The notes under the pieces were generated by a model, which ran no database searches, had not been told where the DNA came from, and saw nothing but the letters and a program-made list of their open reading frames with translations. From Rhodobacter sp. (lineage in GTDB: Bacteria; Pseudomonadota; Alphaproteobacteria; Rhodobacterales; Rhodobacteraceae), in NCBI GenBank assembly GCA_020250445.1, contig JADCEF010000008.1, forward strand, positions 1 to 64,000: a DNA stretch of 64,000 nt. The letters are read 5' to 3'. The position numbers were made by a program, and so were the translations under genes. Positions 9,302 through 26,691 of the stretch are shown here, piece after piece (position 1 is the stretch's first letter; each line of letters opens with the position of its first letter).

Positions 9302-9790
9302 CGGCGTTTCCTCATCAATCCCGAGGTGGATCTTGCGCCGGTCGTTGCCGCCGTGCAGGCGATGCGCGGTGTCGGGTTCACCGTCGCGGGGACGGTGGGG
9401 GCCGGGGTCGGGGACTTCCGGCGGTTTGACACTCTGGGGCAACTGATGGCCTGGCTGGGGCTGACGCCGCCGGAGCATTCCGGCGGCGTAAGCGTGCGGC
9501 GGGGCGGGATCATCAGGGCGGAAAGCGGGCTTGCCCGGCGCGCGCTGACCGGCGGCGTCCGGCGCGACCGGATGCAGGCCCGCGTCAGCCCGAAGCTGTT
9601 TGCCAGGATCGAGGCGCTGCCGCAGGCGGTTCGTGACATCGCCTGAAAAGGGGCAGCTCAGGATGTGCCGGCGTTCCCGCCATCTTGTTGCAGCCGGGAA
9701 GGTAAAGGTGGTGGTCATAACGGCGATCACCCGTAAGATGGCCGACTTCATCCGGGCCATCGCCAGGGCAGCGACCGCCCCCCGGGCGAC
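9302..9790 (+). pseudogene. IS110/IS1111-family transposase remnant (frameshifted)
   Basis: The C-terminal transposase domain (Transposase_20 type) is recognisable. It reads LAPVVAAVQAMRGVGF, then DFRRFDTLGQLMAWLGLTP, then PEHSGG, GGI, ARRAL, and ends AVRDIA followed by TGA at 9644-9646, where the family has a Trp codon. Similarity resumes in another frame at about 9650 (QLRMCRRSRHLVAAGK, then VVVITAITRKMADFIRAIAR). There is thus a premature stop plus a frameshift, and no N-terminal RuvC-like domain is seen. It is a dead copy and cannot encode an active recombinase. Confidence 0.75.
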
Positions 9791-10761: not shown

Positions 10762-11928
10762 CTAGAACTTGAACCGCGCACCGATGAAGAAGGCTTGCGC
10801 GCTTTCGAACGACGTGTCGGTTTCCGAGTAGTCGTAGTCCCGCCAGGTCATCCAGAATTCCGTATTCCACTTCGGCACGTTCTGTACGACCGCCAGGGCC
10901 CAGCTTTCGCTGTCGGACCCTTCGGTCGCAATGTCGGACCCGCCGTAATAGTCAAACGACAGGGCGGTCTTGCCCCATGACACCAGATCACCCTGCCAGC
11001 CAAGTTTGGCATAGCCGTAGGAACCGGTCACATCCGAATTGTCCTGCGTTCCGGCCGCGACGGTGAAGTTCAGGCCGGTCGGCACATGCAGGACTGACCC
11101 CGACCCGTCGAAGATCGTGATATCGCTTCCCTTCCACGAAACGGCGGTCTGTGCGGCGACCTTGAGGTCGTTGAAGGTGCGCTCGTAGACCGCCGCAATG
11201 TCGTACAGGTCCTGCTTGCGCGTTGCCTCGCTGGTGGACAAGAGATCGCGCCCGTACGAGGTGCGCAGCCCGAACCCGGACCACGGGGGCGTGTCGTAGC
11301 GGACGCGGACCCGCCGCGACAGACCGTCATAATTGGTGAAGGCCTGCTTGATCTGGATGTTCGACAGCGTCCCGTCAGACCGGCGCAGCAGTTGCGCGCC
11401 CGCGCTGTCGGCGACGGAGGAATACGAGATCACCGTCGTGCCCGACAGATCGACCTCGGCGGTACTGTTCGACGCCATGTCACCCTGCCCAAGGTAGAAC
11501 GCGCCAAACCGGGGATTGGAAACCCTGTTGTCGATCTTGCGGATGTTTGCGTTGCTGAATTCATAGGCCGAAGCAGGCGGCGACTGCTGCAGGATGCTGG
11601 TGTTGCCGGTCGAGAATGGCGCGTACTGGATCTCCAGCGTGCCGAGATAGCTCCATTCATCGCCGAAACCCTGCGAGTAGGTCAATCCGAACCGGGTGTT
11701 CGAATTGTCGTTGTCAATCAGCCCATAGCTTTCGGACAGCAGCCCGTCATCATAGGTCAACACGCCCTTGTTGAGCTGACCATAGAAGCGCAGCGTGCCG
11801 CCGTTTGCGAACGTCGTTTCGACCTTTGGCAAATCCTGGGCTTTCGCCACCGTGCAGACTGTCGCGGCACCGATCAGCGCCAGAAGACCTGCCTGAACAA
11901 TCTGCCCTGTCCGATTTCCTGATGTCAT
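10762..11928 (-). CDS. Outer-membrane porin-like beta-barrel protein
   Basis: 388 residues with an N-terminal signal peptide (cut near AKA|QD, residue 30). The mature protein is rich in alternating aromatic beta strands (GTLRFYGQLNKGVLTYDD, NTRFGLTYSQGFG, NPRFGAFYLGQGD, RVRVRYDTPPW) and ends in Phe (FFIGARFKF), the BAM recognition signal. It resembles alphaproteobacterial general porins that admit small solutes. GGAGAG lies 8 bp before the ATG. It is divergent from the GltS-type carrier, so the two may share a control region. Confidence 0.82.
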   Translation of the reverse strand: MTSGNRTGQIVQAGLLALIGAATVCTVAKAQDLPKVETTFANGGTLRFYGQLNKGVLTYDDGLLSESYGLIDNDNSNTRFGLTYSQGFGDEWSYLGTLEIQYAPFSTGNTSILQQSPPASAYEFSNANIRKIDNRVSNPRFGAFYLGQGDMASNSTAEVDLSGTTVISYSSVADSAGAQLLRRSDGTLSNIQIKQAFTNYDGLSRRVRVRYDTPPWSGFGLRTSYGRDLLSTSEATRKQDLYDIAAVYERTFNDLKVAAQTAVSWKGSDITIFDGSGSVLHVPTGLNFTVAAGTQDNSDVTGSYGYAKLGWQGDLVSWGKTALSFDYYGGSDIATEGSDSESWALAVVQNVPKWNTEFWMTWRDYDYSETDTSFESAQAFFIGARFKF

Positions 11929-12141
11929 GACCGCTCTCCTGCTGCGTCACCCTGACCGGGTATCCGAAAGGCCGCCAGATCAGTCTTCACGTCCCGCGGC
12001 ATCGTTCAAAGGACCCGGGTGTTAAGCCGTGTAACGTACTTCTGCGCCTGCCTGCCCGTTCCGCATGTGGTTGCAGCGGCAGGCATTGCCGGGCACGAGC
12101 GCCTTCGGCGGTGCATGGCAGGTCTTCGGCAAGGAGGGATC

Positions 12142-13383
12142 ATGAACGACCTTGGAATGTGGCAGATCGAACTGGGCGAGCTTCAGACCATCATCATCGC
12201 GATCATCGCGCTGTTCATCGGACGATGGGTTCGCCGGTCCGTTCCGTTTCTGTCAAAGGTCGATATCCCGAACGCCGTGATCGGGGCCGCCATCGTTGCC
12301 GGACTCGTCCTGATCGGACAGGTGTATTTCAATACCGACGTGTCCTTCGGATCGAAGACCAAGGACGTTCTGCTGCTGGTGTTCTTTACCTCCATCGGGC
12401 TGTCGGCGAAACTCCATGCCCTTTTGTCCGGCGGCAAACCTTTGCTGATCCTCTGCCTGGTCACCGTCATCGTTCTGGTGGTGCAGAACCTTGGCGGGGT
12501 CGCGCTTTCGGTCGCCTGGGGCGCTCATCCTGCTTTCGGGGTGCTGGCCGGGTCACTCTCGTTCGTCGGGGGGCCGGGGACGGCCATGGCCTGGGCCAGC
12601 CAGCTTGAAGCCGAAGGACTTGCCAATGCGGCCATCGTCGGCGTCGGTGCATCCACTTTTGCCATTGTGTCAGGGGCGCTGGTGGCCGGGCCGGTGACGG
12701 GATGGATCATCCGCCGCCACAATCTGCACGGGCAGGATAAGCCGAACGATGTGACCTTCGCCGGGCCCCAGGCGTCGAAGACCCCCGATCCCGATGCGGG
12801 CAGCATCGAGCGTCTGCTGGCCGGCGTTCTGGTCATCGCGACATCGGTCTACCTGGGCGACATGATCAACGCATATGGGGCCTTCGCGGGCATCGTCCTG
12901 CCGGGTTTCCTTTCGGCCATGATTGCCGGGGTGATCGTGACCAATCTGGCCGACCTGTTCCGCTTCAGGCTGGATTTCCTGCCGATCGAAAAGGGCGGTG
13001 CGGTGGCGTTGCAGCTTTTCCTGGTGACGGCACTGATGGCGACACCGCTGATTTCGGTCGCCCAGATTATCGTGCCGCTGGCCCTGAATGTGGTGATCCA
13101 GATCGCCGTGACCGTCGGCGTCGCCTATTTCGTGCTGTTCCGGATGCTGGGCCGCGACTATGACGCCGCCGTCACGGTCGGCGGGTTTCTCGGGTTTGGC
13201 CTGGCCTCGATGCCCGTCGCGATGGGCACGATGGACGAGGTCGCCAAGCGCTACGGCCCTTCGCCCAAGGCGTTTCTGCTGATCACGCTGGCGGGGTCTT
13301 TCTTCGTCGATCTGGCGAACGCGTTCATTGCCAAGGGTTTCCTGTCGCTGCCCTTTTTCGCCATCACGCCGGTCGCGGGTTGA
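12142..13383 (+). CDS. gltS: GltS-type sodium/glutamate symporter
   Basis: 413 residues from ATG 12142, which follows AAGGAGG at good spacing; frame open further left is not conserved. The protein has the ESS-family two-repeat layout with about ten to twelve membrane helices. GltS hallmarks are LVFFTSIGLSA, the loop SFVGGPGTAMAWA (first GG-x-G motif) and a second-half GGFLGFGLASMPVAMGTM. It imports glutamate with sodium across the inner membrane. The CAX exchanger follows after 40 bp, and an amino-acid decarboxylase with an exchanger lies downstream. Confidence 0.87.
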   Translation: MNDLGMWQIELGELQTIIIAIIALFIGRWVRRSVPFLSKVDIPNAVIGAAIVAGLVLIGQVYFNTDVSFGSKTKDVLLLVFFTSIGLSAKLHALLSGGKPLLILCLVTVIVLVVQNLGGVALSVAWGAHPAFGVLAGSLSFVGGPGTAMAWASQLEAEGLANAAIVGVGASTFAIVSGALVAGPVTGWIIRRHNLHGQDKPNDVTFAGPQASKTPDPDAGSIERLLAGVLVIATSVYLGDMINAYGAFAGIVLPGFLSAMIAGVIVTNLADLFRFRLDFLPIEKGGAVALQLFLVTALMATPLISVAQIIVPLALNVVIQIAVTVGVAYFVLFRMLGRDYDAAVTVGGFLGFGLASMPVAMGTMDEVAKRYGPSPKAFLLITLAGSFFVDLANAFIAKGFLSLPFFAITPVAG

Positions 13384-13423
13384 CCGGGGCCGCCGAACAG
13401 TTAACCGGGGACCGGGCGCGACC

Positions 13424-14509
13424 ATGTCACATCTTTTCAGGATAATCCGTCAGAACAGGCTGCTTTGGCTGCTTGTGCTTGCCCCTTTGCCGCTTGTGGC
13501 CGACCAGATCGCCCCCGAAGAGCACACGCTTTTGTTCCTGCTGTCGGTCTTGGCGATCATCCCGCTTGCGGCATTGCTCAGCCTTGCGACAGAGACGGTC
13601 GCGGAAAAGACGGGCGATGCGGTTGGCGGGTTGCTGAACGCCACGCTGGGCAACCTGACCGAGTTGATCATCTGTCTGACGGCCCTTCGCGCGGGCGAGT
13701 ATGTGCTGGTCAAGGCCTCGCTTGCGGGGGCCATCGTGGCGAACACGCTGTTCATGATGGGGGCCTGTTTCCTGATCGGCGGGCTCAGGCACAAGACGCA
13801 GCAGTTCAACCTGGCCAATGCGCGCCTGCAGCTGGCGATGCTGTTCATCGCAGCCTTCGGCCTGATGGTGCCTTCGGCGATCTCGGCGGCAGACCAGGTG
13901 CAGGTGACCCAATCGCTCAGTCTTGGTGTGGCGATCCTGCTGATCGTGACCTATGGCTTTGGTCTTCTGTTCTCGCTTGGCACGCACCGCGAAGTCTTTT
14001 CGGCATCCTCGCATGTCGAAGAACATGGCGAAGCCCTGCCGGTCCCCGTCGCGCTGGCGACGCTGGCCGGGGTCACGGTGATCGTGGCGCTTGTCAGCGA
14101 GGTGTTCGTGGCCTCACTGACCGGTGCATCGCAGACCCTGGGCCTTTCCCCCGCCTTCACCGGTTTCGTCATCGTCGCCCTGGTCGGGGCCGCGGCAGAG
14201 ATGGCCACCGCCTTTTCGGCGGCAGCAAAGGACCGTCTGGACCTGAGCGTTGGAATCGCCTTCGGCAGTTCGGTCCAGATCGCCCTGTTCGTGACACCCC
14301 TGCTGGTGCTGATCAGTTACGTCATCGGGCCAACGCCCATGACCCTGCAATTCTGGCAAGGCGCTGTCGTGATGATCTTCATGGCGGTCCTTACGGCCTC
14401 GATCGTCACGGCCGGCGGGCGGTCGGCGTGGTTTCTGGGTGTGCTGATGCTCATGGTCTACAGCATCTTCGCGCTGACGCTTCTGCTGCTGCCGGCACCC
14501 GCAGGCTGA
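13424..14509 (+). CDS. CAX-family calcium (cation)/proton exchanger
   Basis: 361 residues with two homologous membrane halves. Each carries the CaCA alpha-repeat: GGLLNATLGNLTELIICLTAL in the first and ALVGAAAEMATAFSAAAKDRLDLSVGIAFGSSVQIALF in the second. The acidic E in G-N-x-x-E and G-A-x-x-E-M forms the cation site. It exports Ca2+ or similar cations in exchange for H+ at the inner membrane. ATG 13424 has only a weak GGGG upstream and probably depends on coupling with gltS. Confidence 0.88.
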   Translation: MSHLFRIIRQNRLLWLLVLAPLPLVADQIAPEEHTLLFLLSVLAIIPLAALLSLATETVAEKTGDAVGGLLNATLGNLTELIICLTALRAGEYVLVKASLAGAIVANTLFMMGACFLIGGLRHKTQQFNLANARLQLAMLFIAAFGLMVPSAISAADQVQVTQSLSLGVAILLIVTYGFGLLFSLGTHREVFSASSHVEEHGEALPVPVALATLAGVTVIVALVSEVFVASLTGASQTLGLSPAFTGFVIVALVGAAAEMATAFSAAAKDRLDLSVGIAFGSSVQIALFVTPLLVLISYVIGPTPMTLQFWQGAVVMIFMAVLTASIVTAGGRSAWFLGVLMLMVYSIFALTLLLLPAPAG

Positions 14510-14526
14510 CCGGCCATGCACGATAA

Positions 14527-14541
14527 CATGTTAGAAACATG
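14527..14541. promoter_or_regulatory. Inverted repeat upstream of decarboxylase operon
   Basis: CATGTT-AGA-AACATG, a perfect 6-bp inverted repeat with a 3-bp spacer, lies 121 bp before the decarboxylase start, in the only sizeable gap between it and the CAX gene. It could be an operator for an unlinked regulator. No T-run follows and the arms are short, so a terminator is unlikely. Confidence 0.35.
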
Positions 14542-14661
14542 GTCAAGCGTTCCTTCTGACCCCGGCCCGGTATGCTCTGTCTCGAATCGGCAGCCGCGCC
14601 CTGCGCTTTGGGCAGGCACCCGCCTCTCCGTCCCGATCACGACACAACCAAGGAGTCTGTC

Positions 14662-17364
14662 ATGACGAAACCTGACCGGATCGACAATTTCCTGGCAATG
14701 CATTCCACGCGGACGGACAGCTGGCGCAACGTGCATTCGGCGGCCAGAAGCTGGGCGGCCGGAAGCGGCAGCAAGGCCGCGACCGAGGCGGCGCTGGCAG
14801 AAATCGCGGTGATCGAGGAATTCCACGCCTTTCCGGGCATCCGGCTGATGAACCGGCTGCGCGACAGGCTGGCTGCGGGCGAGGCCGCCGTCGTGGCCGA
14901 TCTGGTGCGCCAGTACGCCGACGCGATCCTGACCGGCCGCTACACCCAGTTGACCGAGGCCGATGGCAGCGCCGAGGGAAGCGATGCCCTGCCCGAGGTT
15001 CTGCCCTCGGTCATTGCCGGGCGCGATACGCGCAGACCCTATTTCGAGGTGCTGCTGGTCAGCCCGCAACCCCCGGCGCGCTGGCCCGCGATCTGCGCCG
15101 AATTGCGCAGGCTGCGCCGCGTCGAAGACGCGTTCGTCTATGAACCGGTGATCGTGGGCAGCTTCGAGGATGCGATCTGTGCCGCCATCGTCAACCCCAA
15201 GATCCTTTCCGTCATCGCCGCCGAGGGTGCTCCGTTCCGGTCGCGGCATGACGCCCCGGTCCTGCGCCGGATCATCGAACAGACCCTGGGGACAGTGCCC
15301 CAGCACGAGTCAGCCCTGATGCTGGCCGGGGTGTTGAAGGGGATGCGGCCCGATCTGGACATCTACGTCACCTCGGACCGCGATGTGGAAACGCTCGCCT
15401 CAGACCCGAAAGCGGCCTGCGCGCGGCGTATCTTTTATGCGGTCGAGGAACTGCTGGAGCTGCATCTGGCCATTCTGGAGGGCATCCAGGAACGCTATGA
15501 GACGCCGTTCTTCAACAATCTGAAGAAATATGCGCAGCGCCCGATCGGGACGTTCCATGCCCTGCCCATCGCACGCGGCAAATCCGTCTTCCGGTCGGAC
15601 TGGATCCGCGACATGGGCGAATTCTACGGCATCAACCTGTTTCTGGCCGAAAGCAGCGCCACGACCGGCGGTCTTGACAGCCTGCTGGAGCCGACGGGCA
15701 ACATCAAGAAGGCGCAGAGCATGGCAGCCCGTGCCTTTGGCGCGGACCATGTCTTTTTCGTCACCAACGGCACCTCGACGTCAAACAAGATGGTCGTGCA
15801 GGCGCTTGTGGCACCGGGTGACATCGTGATCGTGGACCGCAACTGCCACAAGTCGCACCACTACGGCATGGTGCTGACTGGCGGCCAGCCGCTGTATGTC
15901 GAGGCTTTTCCGCTGACCGCCTATTCGATGTACGGCGCGGTGCCGCTGGCGGCGATCAAGAAGGCGCTGCTGGACCTGCGCGACGAGGGGCGGCTTGACC
16001 GCGTCAAACTGCTTGACCTGACGAACTGCACCTTTGACGGCCACATGTACAATACCCGGCGCGTGATGGAAGAATGCCTTGCCATCAAGCCCGACCTGAT
16101 CTTCTTGTGGGATGAGGCCTGGTCGGGTTTTGCCCGCTGGTCGCCGTTCCTGCGCCCGCGCACCGGCATGGGCGCGGCCGAGGCCATTGACGTCTGGCTG
16201 CACGATCCGGCGTCGGTTGCGGCCTATGAGGCGCAGCAAAAGGCGCTTGGCGACAAGCCTTCGCGCGAAACACTTATGTCCACCCGCCTGATCCCCGATC
16301 CGCGCAAGGTGCGCCTGCGGGTCTACCAGACCAATTCGACGCACAAGTCGATGTCGGCGATCCGGCAGGGGTCGATGGTGCTGGTGCGCGATGTGGACTA
16401 CGGCAAGGTCGAAAGCCAGTTCCACGAGGCCGTGTTCACCCATGCCTCGACCAGCCCGAACCAGCAGCTGATCGCCTCGCTCGACGTGGCACGGCGGCAG
16501 ATGGAGCTTGAGGGCTACGGGCTGGTGATGAACGCGATCTCGATCGCGCTGAAGATCCGCCAGATCGTCAACAACCACCCGCTGATCTCGAAATACTTCC
16601 GCATCCTGGGTGCGGACGAACTGATCCCGGCGGAATTCCGCAAATCCGGCTTCACCGACTATCTGACGCCCGGCACAAACTGGGCGGATGTGATCACCGC
16701 GATGCGCGAGGACGAGTTCTACCTTGACCCCACGCGCATGACGATGGTCTGCGGGACGGCCGGGTTCGACGGGACGCAGTTCAAGGGCATCCTTGCCGAC
16801 CGCTTCGACATCCAGGTCAACAAGACCTCGCGCAATTCGGTGCTGCTGCAATCCAACATCAACAACACCCGCAGCGACATCGCGCATCTTGTGCGGGTGC
16901 TGATGGAGATCAGCACCGAGATCGAGGGAAGACTTGCCGACAGCGGTGCTGTCGGCCAGGAGGCCTTTGCCCGGCGCACGAAAAGCCTGATGACCGACGT
17001 GCCGGACCTGCCGAACTTCAGCCGCTTTCATGACGCCTTCCGCAAGGATGCGGGCAAGCACACGCCCGAAGGCGACATGCGCAGCGCCTTCTTCGCCGCC
17101 TACAACGAGGCGGCCTGCGAATATGTCGCCCTCAACGGAGCCGAGATCGACGCGCGGCTGAAGAAGGGCCCCGACCTTGTCTCGGCCAACTTCGTCATCC
17201 CCTATCCGCCGGGCTTTCCGATCATGGTTCCGGGCCAGGTGCTGACGCAGGAAACCATTGATTTCATGCGCAAGCTCGATGTGAAGGAAATCCATGGCTA
17301 CGAGGCTGCAAAGGGGCTCAAGCTGATCCGGCCCGGGCACCTCAAGACAGCAGGCGGCAAGTAA
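14662..17364 (+). CDS. Large PLP-dependent Orn/Lys/Arg-family decarboxylase
   Basis: 900 residues; ATG 14662 follows AAGGAG. The first ~300 residues form an N-terminal region unlike the classical wing domain. The PLP fold-type-I core starts near residue 330 (LLEPTGNIKKAQ, AFGADHVFFVTNGTSTSNK), with the PLP-contacting Asp in FLWDEAWSG and Schiff-base Lys562 in STHKSMSAIRQGS. A C-terminal domain ends in FPIMVPGQVL, also typical of the family. The likely reaction is decarboxylation of an amino acid, consuming a cytoplasmic proton. The AspT-type exchanger follows after 64 bp. Substrate could be a basic or acidic amino acid; the nearby GltS and AspT-like carriers make an acidic substrate worth testing. 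Confidence 0.83.
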   Translation: MTKPDRIDNFLAMHSTRTDSWRNVHSAARSWAAGSGSKAATEAALAEIAVIEEFHAFPGIRLMNRLRDRLAAGEAAVVADLVRQYADAILTGRYTQLTEADGSAEGSDALPEVLPSVIAGRDTRRPYFEVLLVSPQPPARWPAICAELRRLRRVEDAFVYEPVIVGSFEDAICAAIVNPKILSVIAAEGAPFRSRHDAPVLRRIIEQTLGTVPQHESALMLAGVLKGMRPDLDIYVTSDRDVETLASDPKAACARRIFYAVEELLELHLAILEGIQERYETPFFNNLKKYAQRPIGTFHALPIARGKSVFRSDWIRDMGEFYGINLFLAESSATTGGLDSLLEPTGNIKKAQSMAARAFGADHVFFVTNGTSTSNKMVVQALVAPGDIVIVDRNCHKSHHYGMVLTGGQPLYVEAFPLTAYSMYGAVPLAAIKKALLDLRDEGRLDRVKLLDLTNCTFDGHMYNTRRVMEECLAIKPDLIFLWDEAWSGFARWSPFLRPRTGMGAAEAIDVWLHDPASVAAYEAQQKALGDKPSRETLMSTRLIPDPRKVRLRVYQTNSTHKSMSAIRQGSMVLVRDVDYGKVESQFHEAVFTHASTSPNQQLIASLDVARRQMELEGYGLVMNAISIALKIRQIVNNHPLISKYFRILGADELIPAEFRKSGFTDYLTPGTNWADVITAMREDEFYLDPTRMTMVCGTAGFDGTQFKGILADRFDIQVNKTSRNSVLLQSNINNTRSDIAHLVRVLMEISTEIEGRLADSGAVGQEAFARRTKSLMTDVPDLPNFSRFHDAFRKDAGKHTPEGDMRSAFFAAYNEAACEYVALNGAEIDARLKKGPDLVSANFVIPYPPGFPIMVPGQVLTQETIDFMRKLDVKEIHGYEAAKGLKLIRPGHLKTAGGK

Positions 17365-17428
17365 TGCGGACCCTCAGTCCCGCAGGGCGCTGGTCCTGCC
17401 GGGCGTTCTCCACACAAGAGAGGCAGAG

Positions 17429-19117
17429 ATGATCACCTATGTCGTTGAGACGCTGCGCGCCAATCCGCAGCTTGCGATCTTCCTGACACTGGCCATCGGC
17501 TACTATGTCGGCGCGATCCGATTTGGCAGCTTTACCCTGGGGGCGGTCACCGGCACCCTGCTGGCAGGCATCCTGATCGGACAGCTCGGCATCGAGGTTT
17601 CGGGGCAGGTCAAGTCGGTTTTCTTCATCATGTTCCTGTTCGCGGTCGGCTTCGGGGTTGGTCCGCAGTTTGTGCGCGGGATCGCGAACGACGGGGTGCC
17701 GCAGGCGCTTTTTGCAGTCGTCGTCTGTGCCCTCTGTCTGGGATCGGTCTATTTGGCTGCTATCGTTTCGGGCTATGGTCCGGGCCTTGCTGCCGGGTTG
17801 ATTGCGGGGTCGCAGACCATTTCGGCCTCGATCGGGCTTGCGACGGATGCCATCAACACCTCGGGGTTGACCCCGGAGCAGGCCAAGGCGGAACTGGATC
17901 TGATCCCGGTGGCCTATGCCATCACCTACCTGTTCGGGACCGTGGGCACCGGTTGGATCCTCGCCTTCCTTGGGCCAAAGATCCTGAACATCGATGTCGC
18001 GGCGGAATGTGCCAGGTACGAGCGTGAAATGTCGCGCGGCGCGTCGGCTTCGGCGTTCATCAGTGCGCGTCGGGCGCGCGAACTGCGTGCCTATCGCGTC
18101 CGCGAGGGCGGCAAGGCCGTTGGCCTGACCGTCGCCCAGGCCGAACGGCTGGCGGTCGGCGAACGCATGTTCATCGAAGGGTTGCGCAGCGGCGGCGGCA
18201 TCGTGCCGGTCTCGACCGAGACGGTGCTGAAGGCCGGTGACATTGTCGCCGTCTCGGGCAAGCGCGAGGTGCTGGTGAACCTGCTTGGTGACGCAGACGA
18301 GATCGACGACCGGGAACTGCTGGATGTCCCGGTCGAGTCCGTCGATGTGCTGCTGACATCCAAGCAACTGGACGGCATGACGCTGGCCGAGGCGGGCGAA
18401 CATCCCTGTGCGCGCGGCGTATTCCTGAATTCGATCCGCCGCGGATCGGCTGCGGTGAACATCCCCGTTCTGGCGCTGACCAAGCTGAACCGGGGCGATA
18501 TCCTGCGGGTGACGGGTATCAAGTCCAACATCCAGCGCTTTGTCGATGCGGCAGGATATGCCGACCGGCCCGTGACCGTGACCAACATGGTTCTGGTGGG
18601 TCTTGCCATCTTCGTGGGGGGCCTGTTCGGGGCCTATGTCCTGCCCATCGGCGGTGTGCCGATCACGCTGTCGACCTCTGGCGGCGCGCTGATCGCGGGT
18701 ATCTTCGTGGGTTGGCTGCGCACGGTGAAGCCGCAGATCGGCAATGTGCCGCAACCGACGCTCTGGTTCATGAACTCGGTCGGCCTCAACGTGTTCATCG
18801 CGATTGTCGGCATCTCGTCCGGACCGACCTTCATCGCCGGGCTGAAGGAGGCGGGCTTTGGCATCTTCTTCTGGGGCATCTTCGCAACCGGCATGCCGAT
18901 GATCCTTGCACCTTTGGTCGGCAAGTACATCTTCCGCTTCGATCCCGCGATCAACCTTGGCTGCTGCGGCGGTGCGCGCACCTCGACCGCTTCGGTCGCC
19001 ATGGTGGGCGAGGTGGCAAAATCCGATGTGCCGATGCTGGGCTACACGGTGCCCTATGCCGTCGGAAACACCCTGCTGACGCTCTGGGGCCTTGTGATCG
19101 TGCTGCTGATCCTGTAG
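17429..19117 (+). CDS. AspT-type aspartate:alanine exchanger family transporter
   Basis: 562 residues in the AAE family layout. Five or so helices at the N-terminus (through about residue 180) are followed by a cytosolic region with two TrkA-C/RCK-like segments (about 205-290 and 300-380), then a second helical bundle. Family motifs are SQTISASIGLATDAI in the first half and GGARTSTASVAMVGEVAKSDVP in the second. AspT-type proteins swap an amino acid for its decarboxylation product, generating proton-motive force with a partner decarboxylase. The RBS AGAGAGG precedes ATG 17429. Confidence 0.87.
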   Translation: MITYVVETLRANPQLAIFLTLAIGYYVGAIRFGSFTLGAVTGTLLAGILIGQLGIEVSGQVKSVFFIMFLFAVGFGVGPQFVRGIANDGVPQALFAVVVCALCLGSVYLAAIVSGYGPGLAAGLIAGSQTISASIGLATDAINTSGLTPEQAKAELDLIPVAYAITYLFGTVGTGWILAFLGPKILNIDVAAECARYEREMSRGASASAFISARRARELRAYRVREGGKAVGLTVAQAERLAVGERMFIEGLRSGGGIVPVSTETVLKAGDIVAVSGKREVLVNLLGDADEIDDRELLDVPVESVDVLLTSKQLDGMTLAEAGEHPCARGVFLNSIRRGSAAVNIPVLALTKLNRGDILRVTGIKSNIQRFVDAAGYADRPVTVTNMVLVGLAIFVGGLFGAYVLPIGGVPITLSTSGGALIAGIFVGWLRTVKPQIGNVPQPTLWFMNSVGLNVFIAIVGISSGPTFIAGLKEAGFGIFFWGIFATGMPMILAPLVGKYIFRFDPAINLGCCGGARTSTASVAMVGEVAKSDVPMLGYTVPYAVGNTLLTLWGLVIVLLIL

Positions 19118-19261
19118 CGGCACGTTGGGCCGGTCGGGCGTGCGGTACCCGCCACCATGTGCAACCGGGCCGATCTCCGACAACGGGGACCGGCCCCTGC
19201 GCCTGCAAGGCGGTGACGCATCCTGCTGGTCGCATGCGCGCTGCGTCATCGGACAGGCCCG

Positions 19262-19732
19262 ATGAGGTGGCCTGTTCCCTTGACGGCAGTCATTCTGGCG
19301 TTTCGCGCCGGTGTTGCCGGAACCCTTGCAACCTGGATCGCCATGGTCCTTTCGCTGCAATACCCGATCTATGCCTTCATCGCCGCCGTGATCGTGACCG
19401 ACCTGTCCCCCGCACAGTCCCGCCGCCTGGGGCTGCGCCGCATCCTTGCCACGGTCATCGGTGCGGTCTGCGGCGCTGCCCTGTCGCAGCTTCTGGGGCC
19501 GGGTCCCGTTGCCGTGGGCATCGCGGTGGTTTCGGCGATGCTGCTGGGTACGCTCCTGGGGGCCGGAGACGGGGCGCGCGTTGCCGGATACATCTGCGGG
19601 ATCGTCGTGCTCGACCATACCGCCGAGCCATGGCTGTACGCCACCCAGCGCTTTGTTGAAACTGCGCTTGGGGTGATCGTCGCCTGGGGCATCAGCTATG
19701 TGCCGAAGCTGATCGGACCTGACAGCACCTGA
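19262..19732 (+). CDS. Small FUSC/aromatic-acid-exporter-like membrane protein
   Basis: 156 residues with about four to five hydrophobic helices (ATWIAMVLSL, YAFIAAVIVTDLSPAQSRRLGL, RRILATVIGAVCGAALSQLLG, ALGVIVAWGISYVPKLIG). The pattern, especially the TDLSPAQSRR-LGL-RR loop, resembles the membrane half of FUSC/ArAE proteins, which in full-length exporters is paired with a second half and cytoplasmic domains. Here only one half exists. Start ATG 19262 has a weak GGACAGG upstream. Substrate unknown. Confidence 0.7.
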   Translation: MRWPVPLTAVILAFRAGVAGTLATWIAMVLSLQYPIYAFIAAVIVTDLSPAQSRRLGLRRILATVIGAVCGAALSQLLGPGPVAVGIAVVSAMLLGTLLGAGDGARVAGYICGIVVLDHTAEPWLYATQRFVETALGVIVAWGISYVPKLIGPDST

Positions 19733-19829
19733 CGGCAAAGCCACGCCATTGTAACTGTTACGCTGCCCTGCGACGCTTGAAATGTCCCAAGGGGAAGCGG
19801 ACACTGAAAGAAAGCCGGAGGAAGGAAGA

Positions 19830-21320
19830 ATGATCCAACTTCGAAACATCGGTCCTGTAGCGTCCTTGCTGCTGGCAACTGCCCTGACGGCACCCTGTCT
19901 GCCGGCATCCCGGCTCTGGGCTCAGGAGGCTGAGGCACCGGCCGCGCCTGCTGTGTCGCCGGCGCAGGTCGTGCCAGAGGATGGCGGCCTTCTGGATGCC
20001 GGTGCGCTTGACGAGCTGTTCGCGCCGGTCGCCCTTTATCCCGATGCCCTGCTGGCGCAGGTGCTGCTGGCGGCGACCTATCCCCTTGATGTCGTCAAGG
20101 CCGACCTTTTCCTGCAGAAGAACGCGGGGAAGTCCCCCGGCGAGATGTCCGATCTGATCGTGGCACAATCCTGGCCCGAACCGGTCAAGGGGCTTGCCGC
20201 AGGGTTCCCGGACCTGATCGGTCGCATGGTCGAACATCTCGACTGGACAGAAATGGCCGGCAACGCCCTGATCGGGCAGACCGACGACAGCCTGGCCGCA
20301 CTGCAGCGGCTGCGCGCACAGGCCAGGCTGAACGGCTATCTTGAGGACAATGCCGCGATCAATGTCGAGGAATCCGAAACCGGAACGATCACGATCTCAT
20401 CGGCAGAGCCCGAAGTTGTCTACGTTCCGCAATACACCGGAACGGTCTACACCACACCTGCCCCCGCAACGCCCTACTATGTGACGGACGATGACGAATG
20501 GGATGACATCCTGTCCACCGGCGTCATCGTGCTTGCTGGTGCCGTCATCCTTGACGAAATCTTCGATGATGACTGGGACGACAACTGGAACGGCTATTGG
20601 GATGGGAACGGGCCCGGCGGCGGAAACCAGATCGACTGGAGCGGTGACATCACCATCGACAACGGGATCAGCATCGGCAACGGCCAGATCGACATAGACC
20701 GCAAGGACAGGGGGGAAGGCGGCAGGCCGGGTGACGGAACCCGGGGCGACGGCACCCGTGGAGACGGCAGCCCCGGCTCTGGCAATCCTGGCGGTGCGAT
20801 TGCGGGTGGCGCGGCTGGCGGCATCGCAGGCAGGGCCGAGAACCGCCCCCCTGACCGCCCGGCCATCGACAGTGGCCGCCTTGGGGATGTCAGCGAGGAT
20901 CAGGTTCGGAACGCCAGGGACGGCAACTTCCGCCCGTCAGACGCAAGCCAGAACGCGGCGCGCGAAAAGATCGTACGTCAGACGGCTGCGGGCGGCAGCG
21001 TGGCAACCCTTCCGGCATCTACCGGAAAGGGGGACCGCGCCGGCAAGCCTTCGCCGCGCCCGGCTGCAGGCGCTGCGCCCACGCGCACCGACCCGGCGCC
21101 AAAGCCGCAAGGCAACCGGTCCGTTGCGGCAAAGCCGAATGTTTCCAAGCCCAAGACCACAACGCGCCCGTCGGCAGCCTCTGCCAGCCGGAATTCGAGC
21201 GCCAGCCACCCGCCGTCCTACAAGCCCTCCAGCGGGTCGCGCGCCAGGGCCTCGGCTTCGCGGGGCGGTGCCAGTCGCGCGGGCGGGGGTGACTTCAGCG
21301 GCGGCGGAAGGAGGCGCTGA
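19830..21320 (+). CDS. DUF3300 exported protein
   Basis: 496 residues. A signal peptide (cut near LWA|QE) is followed by the DUF3300 domain: DELFAPVALYPDALLAQVLLAATYPLDVVKA, then ALIGQTDDSLAALQRLRAQA and PEVVYVPQYTG. A short acidic-hydrophobic stretch (IVLAGAVILDEIFDDDWDDNW) precedes a long Gly/Arg/Ser/Pro/Ala-rich low-complexity tail that ends RAGGGDFSGGGRRR. ATG 19830 has AGGAAGGAA upstream. It is almost always found with DUF2950, as here (1-bp gap), so the two probably work together in the envelope. Molecular role unknown. Confidence 0.85.
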   Translation: MIQLRNIGPVASLLLATALTAPCLPASRLWAQEAEAPAAPAVSPAQVVPEDGGLLDAGALDELFAPVALYPDALLAQVLLAATYPLDVVKADLFLQKNAGKSPGEMSDLIVAQSWPEPVKGLAAGFPDLIGRMVEHLDWTEMAGNALIGQTDDSLAALQRLRAQARLNGYLEDNAAINVEESETGTITISSAEPEVVYVPQYTGTVYTTPAPATPYYVTDDDEWDDILSTGVIVLAGAVILDEIFDDDWDDNWNGYWDGNGPGGGNQIDWSGDITIDNGISIGNGQIDIDRKDRGEGGRPGDGTRGDGTRGDGSPGSGNPGGAIAGGAAGGIAGRAENRPPDRPAIDSGRLGDVSEDQVRNARDGNFRPSDASQNAAREKIVRQTAAGGSVATLPASTGKGDRAGKPSPRPAAGAAPTRTDPAPKPQGNRSVAAKPNVSKPKTTTRPSAASASRNSSASHPPSYKPSSGSRARASASRGGASRAGGGDFSGGGRRR

Positions 21321-21321
21321 C

Positions 21322-22242
21322 ATGAAAACACCGTTGCTTTTGAAATCTGCGGCCCTTGCAGGCTTGCTTGCCCCCTGCGCGGCACTGGCCGAGCCTGCGA
21401 CCTATCCCTCGCCCGAGCAGGCCGTCGACTCTTTCGTCGCGGCCCTGACAGCGCGCGACCGGGCGGCCCTGCTGACCGTCTTCGGGCCAGAGTCAGACGA
21501 TCTGATCTCGTCAGGCGACGACACGGGGGATGAACAGGCGCGCAAGGAATTCCTGTCCGCCTATGCTGCGCGCGCCGAGATTGTGGATGTTTCTGAAAAC
21601 CGCAGAGAGCTTCAGGTCGGGCCTACGCGCTGGCCCTTTCCGGTGACGCTGGTTTCTGTGGACGGCGGCTGGCAATTCGATCCCGCGGAAGCGCGTGATC
21701 AGATCCTCGACCGACGCATCGGCGAAAACGAACTGGACGTCATCGCGCTCATGCGCCGCGCGGTCGAGGTTCAGGCGGCCTTTCGGCGTGTCGATTATGA
21801 CGGTGACGGCGTGATGGAATTCGCCGATGCGATCCTGTCGGACCCGGGGCTTCGCAACGGCCTTTACTGGCCCGAGGACATGGGCGAACCCCTGAGCCCG
21901 GTGGCGGGCTTCGCCGCGCAAGCCTCGGCCGACGGCATCTCGATCGACGGGGTCGACCAGCCGCCGCAGCCCTACCTGGGCTATTACTATCGCATCCTGA
22001 CGCGCCAGGGGCCAGCCGCGCCCGGCGGGGCGATGGACTACAAGGTGAACGGCAACATGGTGGCGGGCCATGCGATCCTGGCCTTTCCGGCCGTTCCGGG
22101 CGAAACCGGCGTAATGTCGTTTCTCATCGGAGAGAATGGCACCCTCTTTGAGGCAGACCTTGGTGCGGACACACTCGCCATCGCGGGCGATATCCAGACG
22201 TTCAACCCGGGCGAGCCATGGCGACCTGTCGTGGCGGACTGA
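21322..22242 (+). CDS. DUF2950 exported protein
   Basis: 306 residues with a signal peptide (cut near ALA|EP). Family-typical segments are YPSPEQAVDSFVAAL, LLTVFGPESDDLISSGD, GWQFDPAEARDQILDRRIGENEL, QPPQPYLGYYYRILTRQGPAAPGG and a C-terminal GETGVMSFLIGENG. It starts 1 bp after the DUF3300 stop, with GGAGGCGC as ribosome site inside the upstream gene. Probably periplasmic and a functional partner of that protein; the activity is unknown. Confidence 0.87.
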   Translation: MKTPLLLKSAALAGLLAPCAALAEPATYPSPEQAVDSFVAALTARDRAALLTVFGPESDDLISSGDDTGDEQARKEFLSAYAARAEIVDVSENRRELQVGPTRWPFPVTLVSVDGGWQFDPAEARDQILDRRIGENELDVIALMRRAVEVQAAFRRVDYDGDGVMEFADAILSDPGLRNGLYWPEDMGEPLSPVAGFAAQASADGISIDGVDQPPQPYLGYYYRILTRQGPAAPGGAMDYKVNGNMVAGHAILAFPAVPGETGVMSFLIGENGTLFEADLGADTLAIAGDIQTFNPGEPWRPVVAD

Positions 22243-22921: not shown

Positions 22922-23527
22922 TCAGACCCAAGGACGCAGGGCGGACGTCCTTTTTTCGTAGGCGTCGATCGAGGCCACCTTTTCAAGCGACAGACCGATG
23001 TCATCGAGGCCGTTCATCAGGCAATGTTTGCGGAACGGGTCGACTTCGAAGGAAAAGGACCGCCCGTCGGACGCCGTGACGGTTTGTGCGCCAAGGTCCA
23101 CCGTCATGCGGGCATTGGCACCTTTCCTGGCGTCTTCCATCAGGGCTTCGACCTGCTGGGCGGGCAGGACGATCGGCAGGATGCCGTTCTTGAAGCAGTT
23201 GTTGTAGAAGATGTCGGCAAAGCTGGTGGAAATCACCGCGCGGATGCCGAAATCCAAAAGCGCCCAGGGCGCATGTTCACGGCTGGACCCGCAGCCGAAA
23301 TTGTCGCCCGCAACCAGGATCTCCGCCTTGCGATAGGCTGGCTGGTTCAGCACGAAATCGGGTATCTCGGCCCCGTCGGGCGTATAGCGCATCTCGTCGA
23401 ACAGGTTCTTGCCAAGGCCGGACCGCTTGATCGTCTTCAGGAACTGCTTGGGGATGATCATGTCGGTGTCGATATTGACCAGCGGCATGGGGGCGGCGAT
23501 GCCGGTCAGGGTGGTGAATGGGGTCAT
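22922..23527 (-). CDS. leuD: 3-isopropylmalate dehydratase small subunit
   Basis: 201 residues, normal length. Motifs are [19 protein letters not shown] near the start, [20 protein letters not shown] (substrate loop) and [17 protein letters not shown]. With LeuC it isomerises 2-isopropylmalate to 3-isopropylmalate in leucine synthesis. In transcription order it is last of leuC-ATPase-DUF4276-leuD, starting 9 bp after the DUF4276 stop with GGAGGA upstream of the ATG. leuB is not in the window. Confidence 0.96.
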
Positions 23528-23536
23528 TTCGTCCTC

Positions 23537-24082
23537 CTACATCGCAATCAATTGTCTGATCGCAGATACTGTGTGGTGAAAACTGTCAGAGCGGTTCCGT
23601 TCCGGGTCAAGGTGCGGCGCAATGATGCTTGCCCCCGAGACTTTTCCATAGCCGGGGCACAGCCTCGAGAGTTCGCGTGAAGGCTGCACTATCTGATCCG
23701 GATCACGGGTACAAAGCCGGGCAGGTATCTTTCGGAACAGGTTTGAAGATTCCAGTGCCGTCTTGTCTCCGATAAACCATGCTTCCAGTTCCTGGCAGAC
23801 AATCCTGACCTTTGACTGCGCCCCCCGGCCGGACGCGTTGATCAGGTCAAAAAGTCTTTTCTTTCGGGCGTGGCAATCGCCATTGTCATTGTCCCTGAGT
23901 ACCAGGAACTTTGCGTTGGGATCCGTCCAACCTTTCAGCTTGCGCTGAAGCGAACGTTCCAGATGACTTACGCCCTGATGTTCGATGATCGTGACCTGAT
24001 CCAGAGACACGCCCATCTTTGGAAGAATAGCCTTCACGACTTCCTTCATCGAGGATTCTTCGGTCAGGATCACCAGCGTCAT
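23537..24082 (-). CDS. DUF4276 (TOPRIM-like) protein, putative defence effector
   Basis: 181 residues matching the DUF4276 pattern. An N-terminal acidic pair sits in LVILTEESS (E8, E9). The FLVLRDNDNGDC motif (D64, D66, D69) resembles the TOPRIM DxD, and RIVCQELEAWFIGD (E98, E100, D106) is the family signature. By analogy with OLD/PARIS-type systems the TOPRIM-like fold suggests a metal-dependent nuclease or effector gated by the ATPase; this is inference. Its ATG overlaps the ATPase stop by 4 bp, so the two proteins are translationally coupled. Composition is slightly more lysine-rich than neighbouring proteins, consistent with acquisition. Confidence 0.78.
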   Translation of the reverse strand: MTLVILTEESSMKEVVKAILPKMGVSLDQVTIIEHQGVSHLERSLQRKLKGWTDPNAKFLVLRDNDNGDCHARKKRLFDLINASGRGAQSKVRIVCQELEAWFIGDKTALESSNLFRKIPARLCTRDPDQIVQPSRELSRLCPGYGKVSGASIIAPHLDPERNRSDSFHHTVSAIRQLIAM

Positions 24083-25287
24083 CCGGGGTCAGCGCCCTTG
24101 AACAGGCCTTCGCGCCAAAGCCACCCCGGTTTGTCGCCCACGTCAATCAAGGCCTGCAATTGCGCGTCGTCTGCCGCGCGGTCAATCACCGAAAAGCCGT
24201 CCTTCTTGCTTATCCAATAGATCGATCCCAGCGGCACAGCGTTCAGGAAATCCGGCGAATGCGTGGTGACAAAGACCTGTGCGTTGTTCCGCCGCCTTGC
24301 GGCATAGGCGGCAAACTCTTCGGCAAGGATTGGCAGAAGCGACGGATACAACTGGTTTTCCGGTTCTTCGATGCACAGCAGCGGATGCGGGTCAGGATCG
24401 GCCAGAAGCGCCAGATAGGCGAACATCTTGATCGTTCCATCCGACACGGCCCGCGCGATGAAACCTTTGTCAAAGGCGGCATCTCGGAACCGCAGCAGAA
24501 CACGCCCGTCGCCGGTATCCTCGGGCGCGACCTCGGCAATTCCGGGAATACGTTCCGCCATCTTGCGAAGCAGATCGGCGAAGATTGCCGGATGGTTTTC
24601 GCTCAGGAACTGCGCATAAAGCGCAAGGTTGTCGCCAGTCTCGCTCAGATGCTCGGCAGGTGCGGCATCCGGTTCTATCCGGGCGTCACTGATATGAAAA
24701 TCGCTGACCGACCAGCCTTCGATCAATTCCCGCAGCTGGCTGGCCGCATCGAACCGCTTGAACTGACCAAGCCCTTTGAGGGCAAGGATATCCGGGGAGT
24801 CCAGCGCCTGATGCTCCCGCTTCAGGTCCTCTTCCCGAGTTTGCTCGGTAAACGCATCGAAGCCTTCCGGGATCGCTTCCCCGGCACCGTCCGTGAAGTC
24901 GATGAAGTTGAACGGGCGACCATAACTGCCGCGCTTCCAGCTTAACCGTTCTCTGCGGACAAGGATTTTTCTGTCCTGCTCGGCGATCTGAACCTCATAG
25001 GTCACGAGTCGCTTTTTCTTGGCGGCGAAGTCAAGTTCTACCTTCAGTTCGATCTCGATGCATTCACGCTCACGCCCGCGCGACACAAGCTGTGCAAAGC
25101 CTGCGCGCTTTTGCACTGCCGTGCGCACGTTGTGAATCAGGCTGTCGCGCAAGAAGCCGAATACATCAATGAAGGTGGTTTTTCCGGTTCCATTCGCGCC
25201 GATCAGAACTGCAAAGTTCGGAATCTCCCGCATGTGGACATCCCGCAAGGTCTTGAAGTTCCGCACCCTGACGGAATGGATGCGCAT
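24079..25287 (-). CDS. AAA (AAA_21/OLD-like) ATPase of a two-gene cassette
   Basis: 402 residues. The N-terminus MRIHSVRVRNFKTLRDVHM is typical of SMC/OLD-like AAA_21 ATPases. Walker A is GANGTGKT (residues 30-37), an ABC-like signature SDGTIKMFAYLALL precedes Walker B LLCIEEPENQLYP (about 300-312), and the switch His lies in VFVTTHSPDFLNAV (about 337-350). A central helical region replaces long coiled coils. There is no C-terminal nuclease domain; the partner DUF4276 supplies a TOPRIM-like one. The ATG follows the leuC stop with no intervening base. Likely the sensor/motor of an anti-phage or abortive-infection pair. Confidence 0.82.
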   Translation of the reverse strand: MRIHSVRVRNFKTLRDVHMREIPNFAVLIGANGTGKTTFIDVFGFLRDSLIHNVRTAVQKRAGFAQLVSRGRERECIEIELKVELDFAAKKKRLVTYEVQIAEQDRKILVRRERLSWKRGSYGRPFNFIDFTDGAGEAIPEGFDAFTEQTREEDLKREHQALDSPDILALKGLGQFKRFDAASQLRELIEGWSVSDFHISDARIEPDAAPAEHLSETGDNLALYAQFLSENHPAIFADLLRKMAERIPGIAEVAPEDTGDGRVLLRFRDAAFDKGFIARAVSDGTIKMFAYLALLADPDPHPLLCIEEPENQLYPSLLPILAEEFAAYAARRRNNAQVFVTTHSPDFLNAVPLGSIYWISKKDGFSVIDRAADDAQLQALIDVGDKPGWLWREGLFKGADPG

Positions 25288-26691
25288 TCACATCATCTCC
25301 CGCACATCCGTCAGCCGCCCCGTCACCGCCGCCGCCGCGGCCATCGCTGGCGACAAAAGGTGCGTGCGCCCGCCGCGGCCCTGACGCCCTTCGAAGTTGC
25401 GGTTGCTCGTGGCGGCGCAGCGTTCGCCGGGCGAAAGCTGATCGGGGTTCATCGCCAGGCACATCGAACAGCCCGCAAGGCGCCATTCAAAGCCCGCATC
25501 GATGAAAATCTGCGCCAGCCCTTCTTCCTCGGCCTGGGCGCGGACAAGACCCGATCCGGGCACGACCATGGCCCGCAGGCCATCCTTGATCTTCTTGCCC
25601 TTCAGGATTGCGGCCGCCGCGCGCAAATCCTCGATCCGCCCGTTGGTGCAGGACCCGATGAAGACCGTGTCGATGGCAATTTCCGCCAGCTTCTGCCCCG
25701 GCTTCAGCCCCATGTATTCCAGGCTGCGCCGCGCCGCTTCTACCTTGCCGCCGGTAAAGCTTTCGGGGTCCGGCACCACGCCGGTGATCGGCAGCACATC
25801 TTCGGGGCTGGTGCCCCAGGTCACGACGGGGGCAATATCCTCGCCCCGCAGCGTCACGACCTTGTCAAACTGCGCACCCTCGTCGGAATACAGCGTCTTC
25901 CACCAGGCAAGCGCGGCTTCCCATTGCGCCCCTTTCGGCGCATGGGGCCGACCCATGACATAGGCGAAGGTCTTTTCATCCGGCGCGATCAGACCGGCGC
26001 GGGCACCACCCTCGATCGCCATGTTGCACACCGTCATCCGCCCTTCCATCGACAGCTCGCGAATGGCCTGGCCGCAATATTCGATCACATGGCCGGTCCC
26101 GCCTGCCGTACCGGTGGCCCCGATCACCGACAGGGTGATGTCCTTGGCCGTGACACCGGGGCGCAGCGAGCCCGTGATCTCGACCTTCATGTTCTTTGAT
26201 TTCTGCTGGATCAGCGTCTGCGTCGCCAGCACATGTTCCACCTCGGATGTGCCGATGCCATGGGCCAGCGCGCCGAAGGCGCCATGCGTGGCCGTATGCG
26301 AATCGCCGCAGACCACGGTCATGCCCGGCAGGGTCCAGCCCTGTTCGGGGCCAACGATATGCACGATGCCCTGACGGATATCCGACACCGGATAGTAATT
26401 GATGCCAAAGTCGCGCGCGTTCCTGTCCAGCGCCTCAACCTGGATGCGGCTTTCCTCATTGTCGATATGGGTGTTGCGCCCGGCGGTTGTGGGCACGTTG
26501 TGGTCAGGCACGGCAATGGTCTTTTCCGGTGCCCGCACACTGCGCCCCGCCATCCGCAGCCCCTCGAAGGCCTGCGGGCTTGTCACCTCATGCACAAGGT
26601 GGCGGTCGATGTACAAAAGGCAGGTGCCGTCATCGGCCTGGTGGACGACATGGGCATCCCAGATTTTATCATAAAGCGTTTTCGGAGACAT
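25288..26691 (-). CDS. leuC: 3-isopropylmalate dehydratase large subunit
   Basis: 467 residues of the aconitase superfamily. It begins [13 protein letters not shown] and shows [52 protein letters not shown], and three 4Fe-4S cluster cysteines in [15 protein letters not shown] and [12 protein letters not shown]. It ends ...VREMM and is followed directly by the ATPase start codon. With LeuD it forms isopropylmalate isomerase. The two subunits are normally adjacent or separated by a small ORF; here 1.75 kb of foreign-looking genes intervene, so leuD expression depends on readthrough of the cassette or an internal promoter. Confidence 0.96.

Follow-up and report, generated by a model that had tools for sequence, protein, structure and literature searches.

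A candidate decarboxylation/antiport cycle for acidic amino acids, formed by an Rv2531c-type decarboxylase and an AspT-family carrier in Alphaproteobacteria

Why does a decarboxylase of the Orn/Lys/Arg (OKR) family adjoin a carrier of acidic amino acids? The question is raised by the window analysed here, a 64,000-nucleotide stretch of DNA from a Rhodobacter sp. contig, for which the first-pass annotation had described a 900-residue decarboxylase (DC) paired with an AspT-type exchanger, with a GltS and a CAX transporter upstream. This layout is borne out by the open reading frames and by matches to PF01276, TIGR03802, PF03616 and TIGR00378. The genes concerned are the following:

10762..11928, - strand: porin-like protein of the outer membrane, left end of the block, without a Pfam match, related to annotated porins near other DC loci
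about 12142..13383, + strand: GltS-type Na+/glutamate symporter (PF03616, 288.5 bits; TIGR00210, 307.9 bits, slightly below the cut-off of 310.75)
about 13424..14509, + strand: CAX-type Ca2+/H+ exchanger (TIGR00378, 283 bits; cut-off 211)
14662..17364, + strand: DC, a 900-aa fold-type-I PLP decarboxylase of the Rv2531c-type subfamily (PF01276, phmmer, Foldseek and residue tables)
17429..19117, + strand: AspT-family antiporter of 562 aa, two Asp-Al_Ex repeats with TrkA_C domains in between (PF06826, PF02080, TIGR03802)
19262..19732, + strand: short membrane protein of the FUSC/ArAE type, right end of the block (PF06081, 52.7 bits; PF13515, 49 bits)
19782..21320, + strand: DUF3300 protein (PF11737, 140 bits)
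21319..22242, + strand: DUF2950 protein (PF11453, 286 bits)

The DC gene starts with the ATG at 14662, 5' of which lies an AAGGAG ribosome site, and stops at 17364. GltS, CAX, DC and AspT all lie on the + strand and are separated by gaps of about 40, 152 and 64 bp. Positions 10762-19741 of the window match a locus from a MAG recorded as Rhodobacter sp. (L033) at 95.6% DNA identity, and because this match spans exactly these positions and stops on both sides, the genes from the porin through GltS, CAX, DC and AspT to FUSC behave as a unit, a block of about 9 kb. GltS and CAX are thus likely to belong to the same module as DC and AspT. The DUF3300 and DUF2950 genes lie beyond the shared block, yet are present near other DC loci, around which the DUF3300, DUF2950 and DUF3302/HlyD protein families recur. 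A scan for promoters gave no match, and terminators were matched at close to the chance level. Just left of the block start, an IS110-type transposase fragment (Transposase_20) occupies 9326-9646. On the - strand at 23537-25287, an AAA_21 ATPase and a DUF4276 protein with strong PADLOC HEC-01 matches (542 and 158 bits) lie between an apparent leuD (22922-23527) and an apparent leuC (25288-26691), and may be a phage-defence pair that was inserted among the leu genes.

The first step towards an answer concerns the enzyme itself. DC scores 233 bits with the OKR family model PF01276 (cut-off 27), and its PLP-lysine motif STHK (S559-T-H-K562) aligns K562 with CadA K367. None of the NCBIfam models for lysine, arginine and ornithine decarboxylases was passed, with scores of 86-174 bits and cut-offs of 794-1310 (950 for the hypothetical model). 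The closest solved relative in a phmmer search is Rv2531c of M. tuberculosis (PDB 9n0n/9n0o; 734 bits, E 2e-219, alignment over residues 44-889), and the next solved enzyme reaches 185 bits only. With an AlphaFold2 model of DC (mean pLDDT 77.5, active-site loops of low confidence), the best ten PDB matches in Foldseek are all Rv2531c chains (9n0o/9n0p/9n0n), followed by AdiA and LdcI. Judged by these sequence and model comparisons, DC is a member of the Rv2531c-type orphan subfamily and not an ordinary Orn/Lys/Arg decarboxylase, so that the initial family assignment stands as regards PF01276 and the OKR fold, but not in the sense of a typical member. For Rv2531c, a 2026 review states that its activity was not clarified by its structure study (PMC12910592), and Michael and co-workers consider many OKR-type homologues unlikely to be arginine, ornithine or lysine decarboxylases (PMC8503589).

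A comparison of 16 Rv2531c-type members with nine OKR enzymes of other branches (four E. coli enzymes with known substrates and five annotated or unannotated homologues) separates residues for catalysis from those for the side chain. Kept in DC are K562, H396, D484, S559, H561 and W487, that is, all PLP-chemistry residues that are invariant in the E. coli enzymes. At the position of CadA E526, 8/9 controls carry Glu and all 16 subfamily members carry Asn (N720); the ninth control, AdiA, has Thr there and an Asp (D575) four residues further, where 15 of the 16 subfamily members carry Arg (R724) and Rv2531c carries Ile. The Glu of the PGE motif in the C-terminal domain (CadA E663) is found in 9/9 controls and is replaced by Gln (Q859) in 16/16 subfamily members, and a position after the PLP lysine changes from Ser (9/9) to Arg (R568, 16/16). 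DC therefore lacks an acidic residue at the CadA E526/SpeF E532 or AdiA D575 position, having N720 and R724 instead, and with Q859 it also lacks the PGE Glu expected of basic-amino-acid decarboxylases. In SpeF/ODC, E532 is presumably the residue that recognises the substrate amino group. For LdcI and AdiA, negative residues that form a patch within the active-site channel have been described as a potential substrate site (PMC4832331). A charge change from D506 to K708 was discarded, as the alignment differs between two methods.

The loss of carboxylates together with the gain of arginines would argue against a basic substrate and would be compatible with an acidic one. An acidic substrate of DC is likely because residues for basic substrates were lost and basic residues were gained, and the puzzle of an Orn/Lys/Arg-family enzyme with an AspT partner, which is real, is largely resolved by these changes. 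The opposing view, that DC is a lysine, ornithine or arginine decarboxylase of the CadA/AdiA kind whose AspT-family carrier was recruited or is an unrelated neighbour, draws on the OKR fold and Pfam family, on the rank of AdiA and LdcI next after Rv2531c in Foldseek, and on one relative from the sister group of the AspT-linked enzymes (group B) that lies near arginine genes. We consider it quite improbable, since the side-chain glutamates are gone and arginines are gained, the NCBIfam scores for lysine, arginine and ornithine decarboxylases stay far below even the lowest cut-off, and no APC-type antiporter (AdiC, CadB, PotE) occurs among the recurrent neighbour families identified.

Whether enzyme and carrier belong together can be judged from 80 related loci taken from named genomes. 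An AspT-family gene lies directly downstream of DC on the same strand in 74 of them, at a median gap of 80 bp; AspT occurs anywhere on the fetched stretch in 78/80 (the two without are L040 and L089), and 54/80 loci have two AspT genes. The DC-AspT pairing is far more frequent than chance would give and is no peculiarity of the window. In a tree of 55 sequences, all 28 AspT-linked DCs fall on one side of a branch with an SH-aLRT of 100, a count that includes L040 and L089, which were labelled by clade though no AspT was seen there. The AspT-linked clade has one species outside Alphaproteobacteria (L174), in which DC is followed by two AspT genes. Rv2531c shares the fold and the N720/Q859/R568 signature with DC, but differs in its Ile at the R724 position and in its placement outside the AspT-linked clade. 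Among 399 Pseudomonadota genomes, AspT is present in 8/8 with an AspT-clade DC, which represent four independent genera as five of the eight are of one genus, versus 47/399 overall; the 10 genomes with a group-B DC are all without AspT. The linkage across many genera and the single AspT-linked clade lend good support to the logic of a decarboxylation/antiport cycle, as first proposed for this locus.

Group B, the sister group, is about 45-50% identical and lacks AspT. Its enzymes have the same residue signature, but their neighbours are a CN-hydrolase, an ATP-grasp protein and a C45 hydrolase, and the signature alone therefore does not imply an AspT cycle. In Rhodobacterales and others (L123, L126, L155-L185, others), the group-B neighbourhood comprises the CN-hydrolase, the ATP-grasp protein (NF005096), the C45 hydrolase and a TAXI-TRAP transporter, and in R. 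leguminosarum (L126) the group-B DC lies beside nifHDKEN.

The carrier of the window reaches 596.8 bits with the aspartate-alanine antiporter model TIGR03802, above its cut-off of 546.95, and 236 bits with PF06826; PF02080 is also matched, and the solved AspT 8xw5 is found with 185 bits. In the carrier tree, its branch is sister to AspT genes adjoining AsdA. Directly downstream of DC, carriers of type I occur 12 times, of type II 22 times and of type III 40 times, and this variation agrees poorly with one exchange reaction, unless that reaction is common to several types. That the carrier type varies while DC is constant, and that many unrelated stress genes occur in the island, would fit an arrangement in which both proteins are mere neighbours in a stress island without a common substrate, the carrier exporting organic acids, as YbjL-type carriers may. 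The short same-strand spacing, which is kept in 74/80 loci despite differing surroundings, and the fact that no decarboxylase partner other than DC was found for the single AspT of the window make such an arrangement unlikely in our view.

This last point follows from the genome itself, which is 97% complete and holds one AspT. The best TIGR03801 match to AsdA in it has 27.9 bits against a cut-off of 435.1, and the best TIGR01788 match to GadB 63.4 bits against 380.4; with neither AsdA nor GadB above cut-off, DC is the sole candidate partner found for the carrier. Elsewhere, the expectation that AspT partners are usually aspartate decarboxylases agrees with most loci, AsdA accounting for most of the recognised AspT-family neighbours in the phylum sample, but it does not hold for one AspT branch, which adjoins a true glutamate decarboxylase, GadB (TIGR01788, 651 bits; cut-off 380.4). 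This pairing occurs in 17/17 loci fetched from one Pseudomonadota family, f53 (L222, L226-L242), including one in which GadB is only 42% identical (L241), and suggests AspT-type Glu/GABA exchangers. The known partners of AspT-family carriers are hence decarboxylases of acidic amino acids, one of them an alpha-decarboxylase.

The proposed cycle would run as follows. The carrier would import an acidic amino acid of net charge -1, from which DC would remove the alpha-carboxyl group, using one cytosolic proton and releasing CO2, and the neutral product would leave through the carrier in exchange for the next substrate; GltS may supply glutamate. The net inward movement of negative charge and the consumption of protons would build a proton-motive force and raise the internal pH. 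For the AspT of Tetragenococcus, electrogenic Asp(-1)/Ala(0) exchange has been described, which makes proton-motive force in a cycle with AsdA (PMC9508256). In this general form, DC and the AspT-family carrier probably constitute a cycle of decarboxylation and antiport that acts on an acidic amino acid, is electrogenic and consumes protons, with substrate, product, exchange and charge movement deduced from the evidence above. With slightly more belief than doubt, we go further and suggest that acidic amino acids took the place of basic ones as substrates in the OKR subfamily containing Rv2531c, and that one clade of this subfamily forms an undescribed AspT cycle, Glu/GABA or Asp/beta-alanine, in many Alphaproteobacteria.

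As to the substrate, we favour the conversion of glutamate to GABA over that of aspartate to beta-alanine, though not decisively, because GltS is recurrent, the GadB pairing offers a precedent, and aspartate is often already dealt with in the same island by AsdA and a carrier of its own. GltS was found near related pairs in 9/80 loci, which is in keeping with the idea of a glutamate feed, and AsdA is present in 29 of about 89 loci. If DC were instead an aspartate alpha-decarboxylase and the carrier swapped Asp(-1) for beta-alanine(0), the cycle would otherwise be the same. Aspartate is favoured by the carrier, both by its score above the TIGR03802 cut-off and by the sister position of its branch to AsdA-linked carriers; beta-alanine is an isomer of alanine, and the genome is without PanD. 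A second aspartate enzyme would, however, be redundant in the many Rhizobiales islands that hold AsdA with its own AspT beside DC, and the recurrent feeder is GltS, so that we regard the aspartate version as a possibility to be kept in mind rather than the probable one. Three further indications were set aside. The absence of PanD was not taken as a sign of beta-alanine supply, as PanD is missing in 150/150 genomes of the order, most of them without this DC. The carrier type was not used to choose between glutamate and aspartate, since both branches are long, although the GadB-linked carrier joins type III (SH-aLRT 96). GABA shunt genes beside the pair were a weak indication, found among AspT-linked loci in Phyllobacterium L120 only.

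The same charge logic would hold for other acidic amino acids, such as cysteate, cysteine sulfinate or 2-aminoadipate, with taurine, hypotaurine or a similar neutral product exported, and SulP-family anion transporters do occur in 34 loci. As genes for taurine or sulfonates were not noticed in the vicinity, and the one SulP tested scores as a general SulP, its matches to DauA and BicA being weaker, we rate such substrates as very improbable.

The surroundings suggest that the glutamate or aspartate cycle sits in an acid or ion-stress gene module, a role read from neighbouring genes and the weakest part of our proposal. The neighbours behind it are AsdA, SulP, PPK2, CAX (in 10/80 related loci) and porins; on one Rhizobium plasmid (L122), a carbonic anhydrase and an HdeA-family chaperone lie beside the pair. 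This HdeA/HdeB-family gene (L122:16873-17166) shares its island with DC, AspT and an aspartate 4-decarboxylase. HdeA was not found in the genome of the window, and it was dropped as a general companion, as it occurs at one locus only. At L033:2-1690 and in about 25 related loci, the DC islands are adjoined by a TPR protein whose N-terminal part is conserved, possibly a regulator.

The system of the window would work like the AsdA/AspT, GadB/GadC and CadA/CadB cycles, yet it is a member of none, because neither AsdA nor GadB is recognisable in the genome and the residues for basic substrates are missing. With the AsdA/AspT cycle of Tetragenococcus and many Pseudomonadota it shares an AspT-family carrier adjoining a PLP decarboxylase and the same predicted charge and proton logic, but its enzyme belongs to the OKR family and its genome is without AsdA. 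The GadB pair of family f53 likewise places an alpha-decarboxylase beside an AspT-family carrier, whereas GadB belongs to another PLP decarboxylase branch and its carrier is about 30% identical to that of the window. The inducible CadA/CadB, AdiA/AdiC and SpeF/PotE systems of E. coli resemble it in combining an OKR-fold decarboxylase with a substrate/product antiporter, but they act on basic amino acids with APC antiporters, while the window has other side-chain residues and an AspT-family carrier.

If our reading is true, a third kind of enzyme would be added to the decarboxylase/AspT cycles, and the adjacency of an Orn/Lys/Arg-family enzyme and a carrier of acidic amino acids would be explained. 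It would also provide an acidic-amino-acid substrate hypothesis for all of the orphan subfamily, Rv2531c with its solved structure included, and would point to a pH or energy system among bacteria of soils and plants that is at present annotated merely as 'decarboxylase'.
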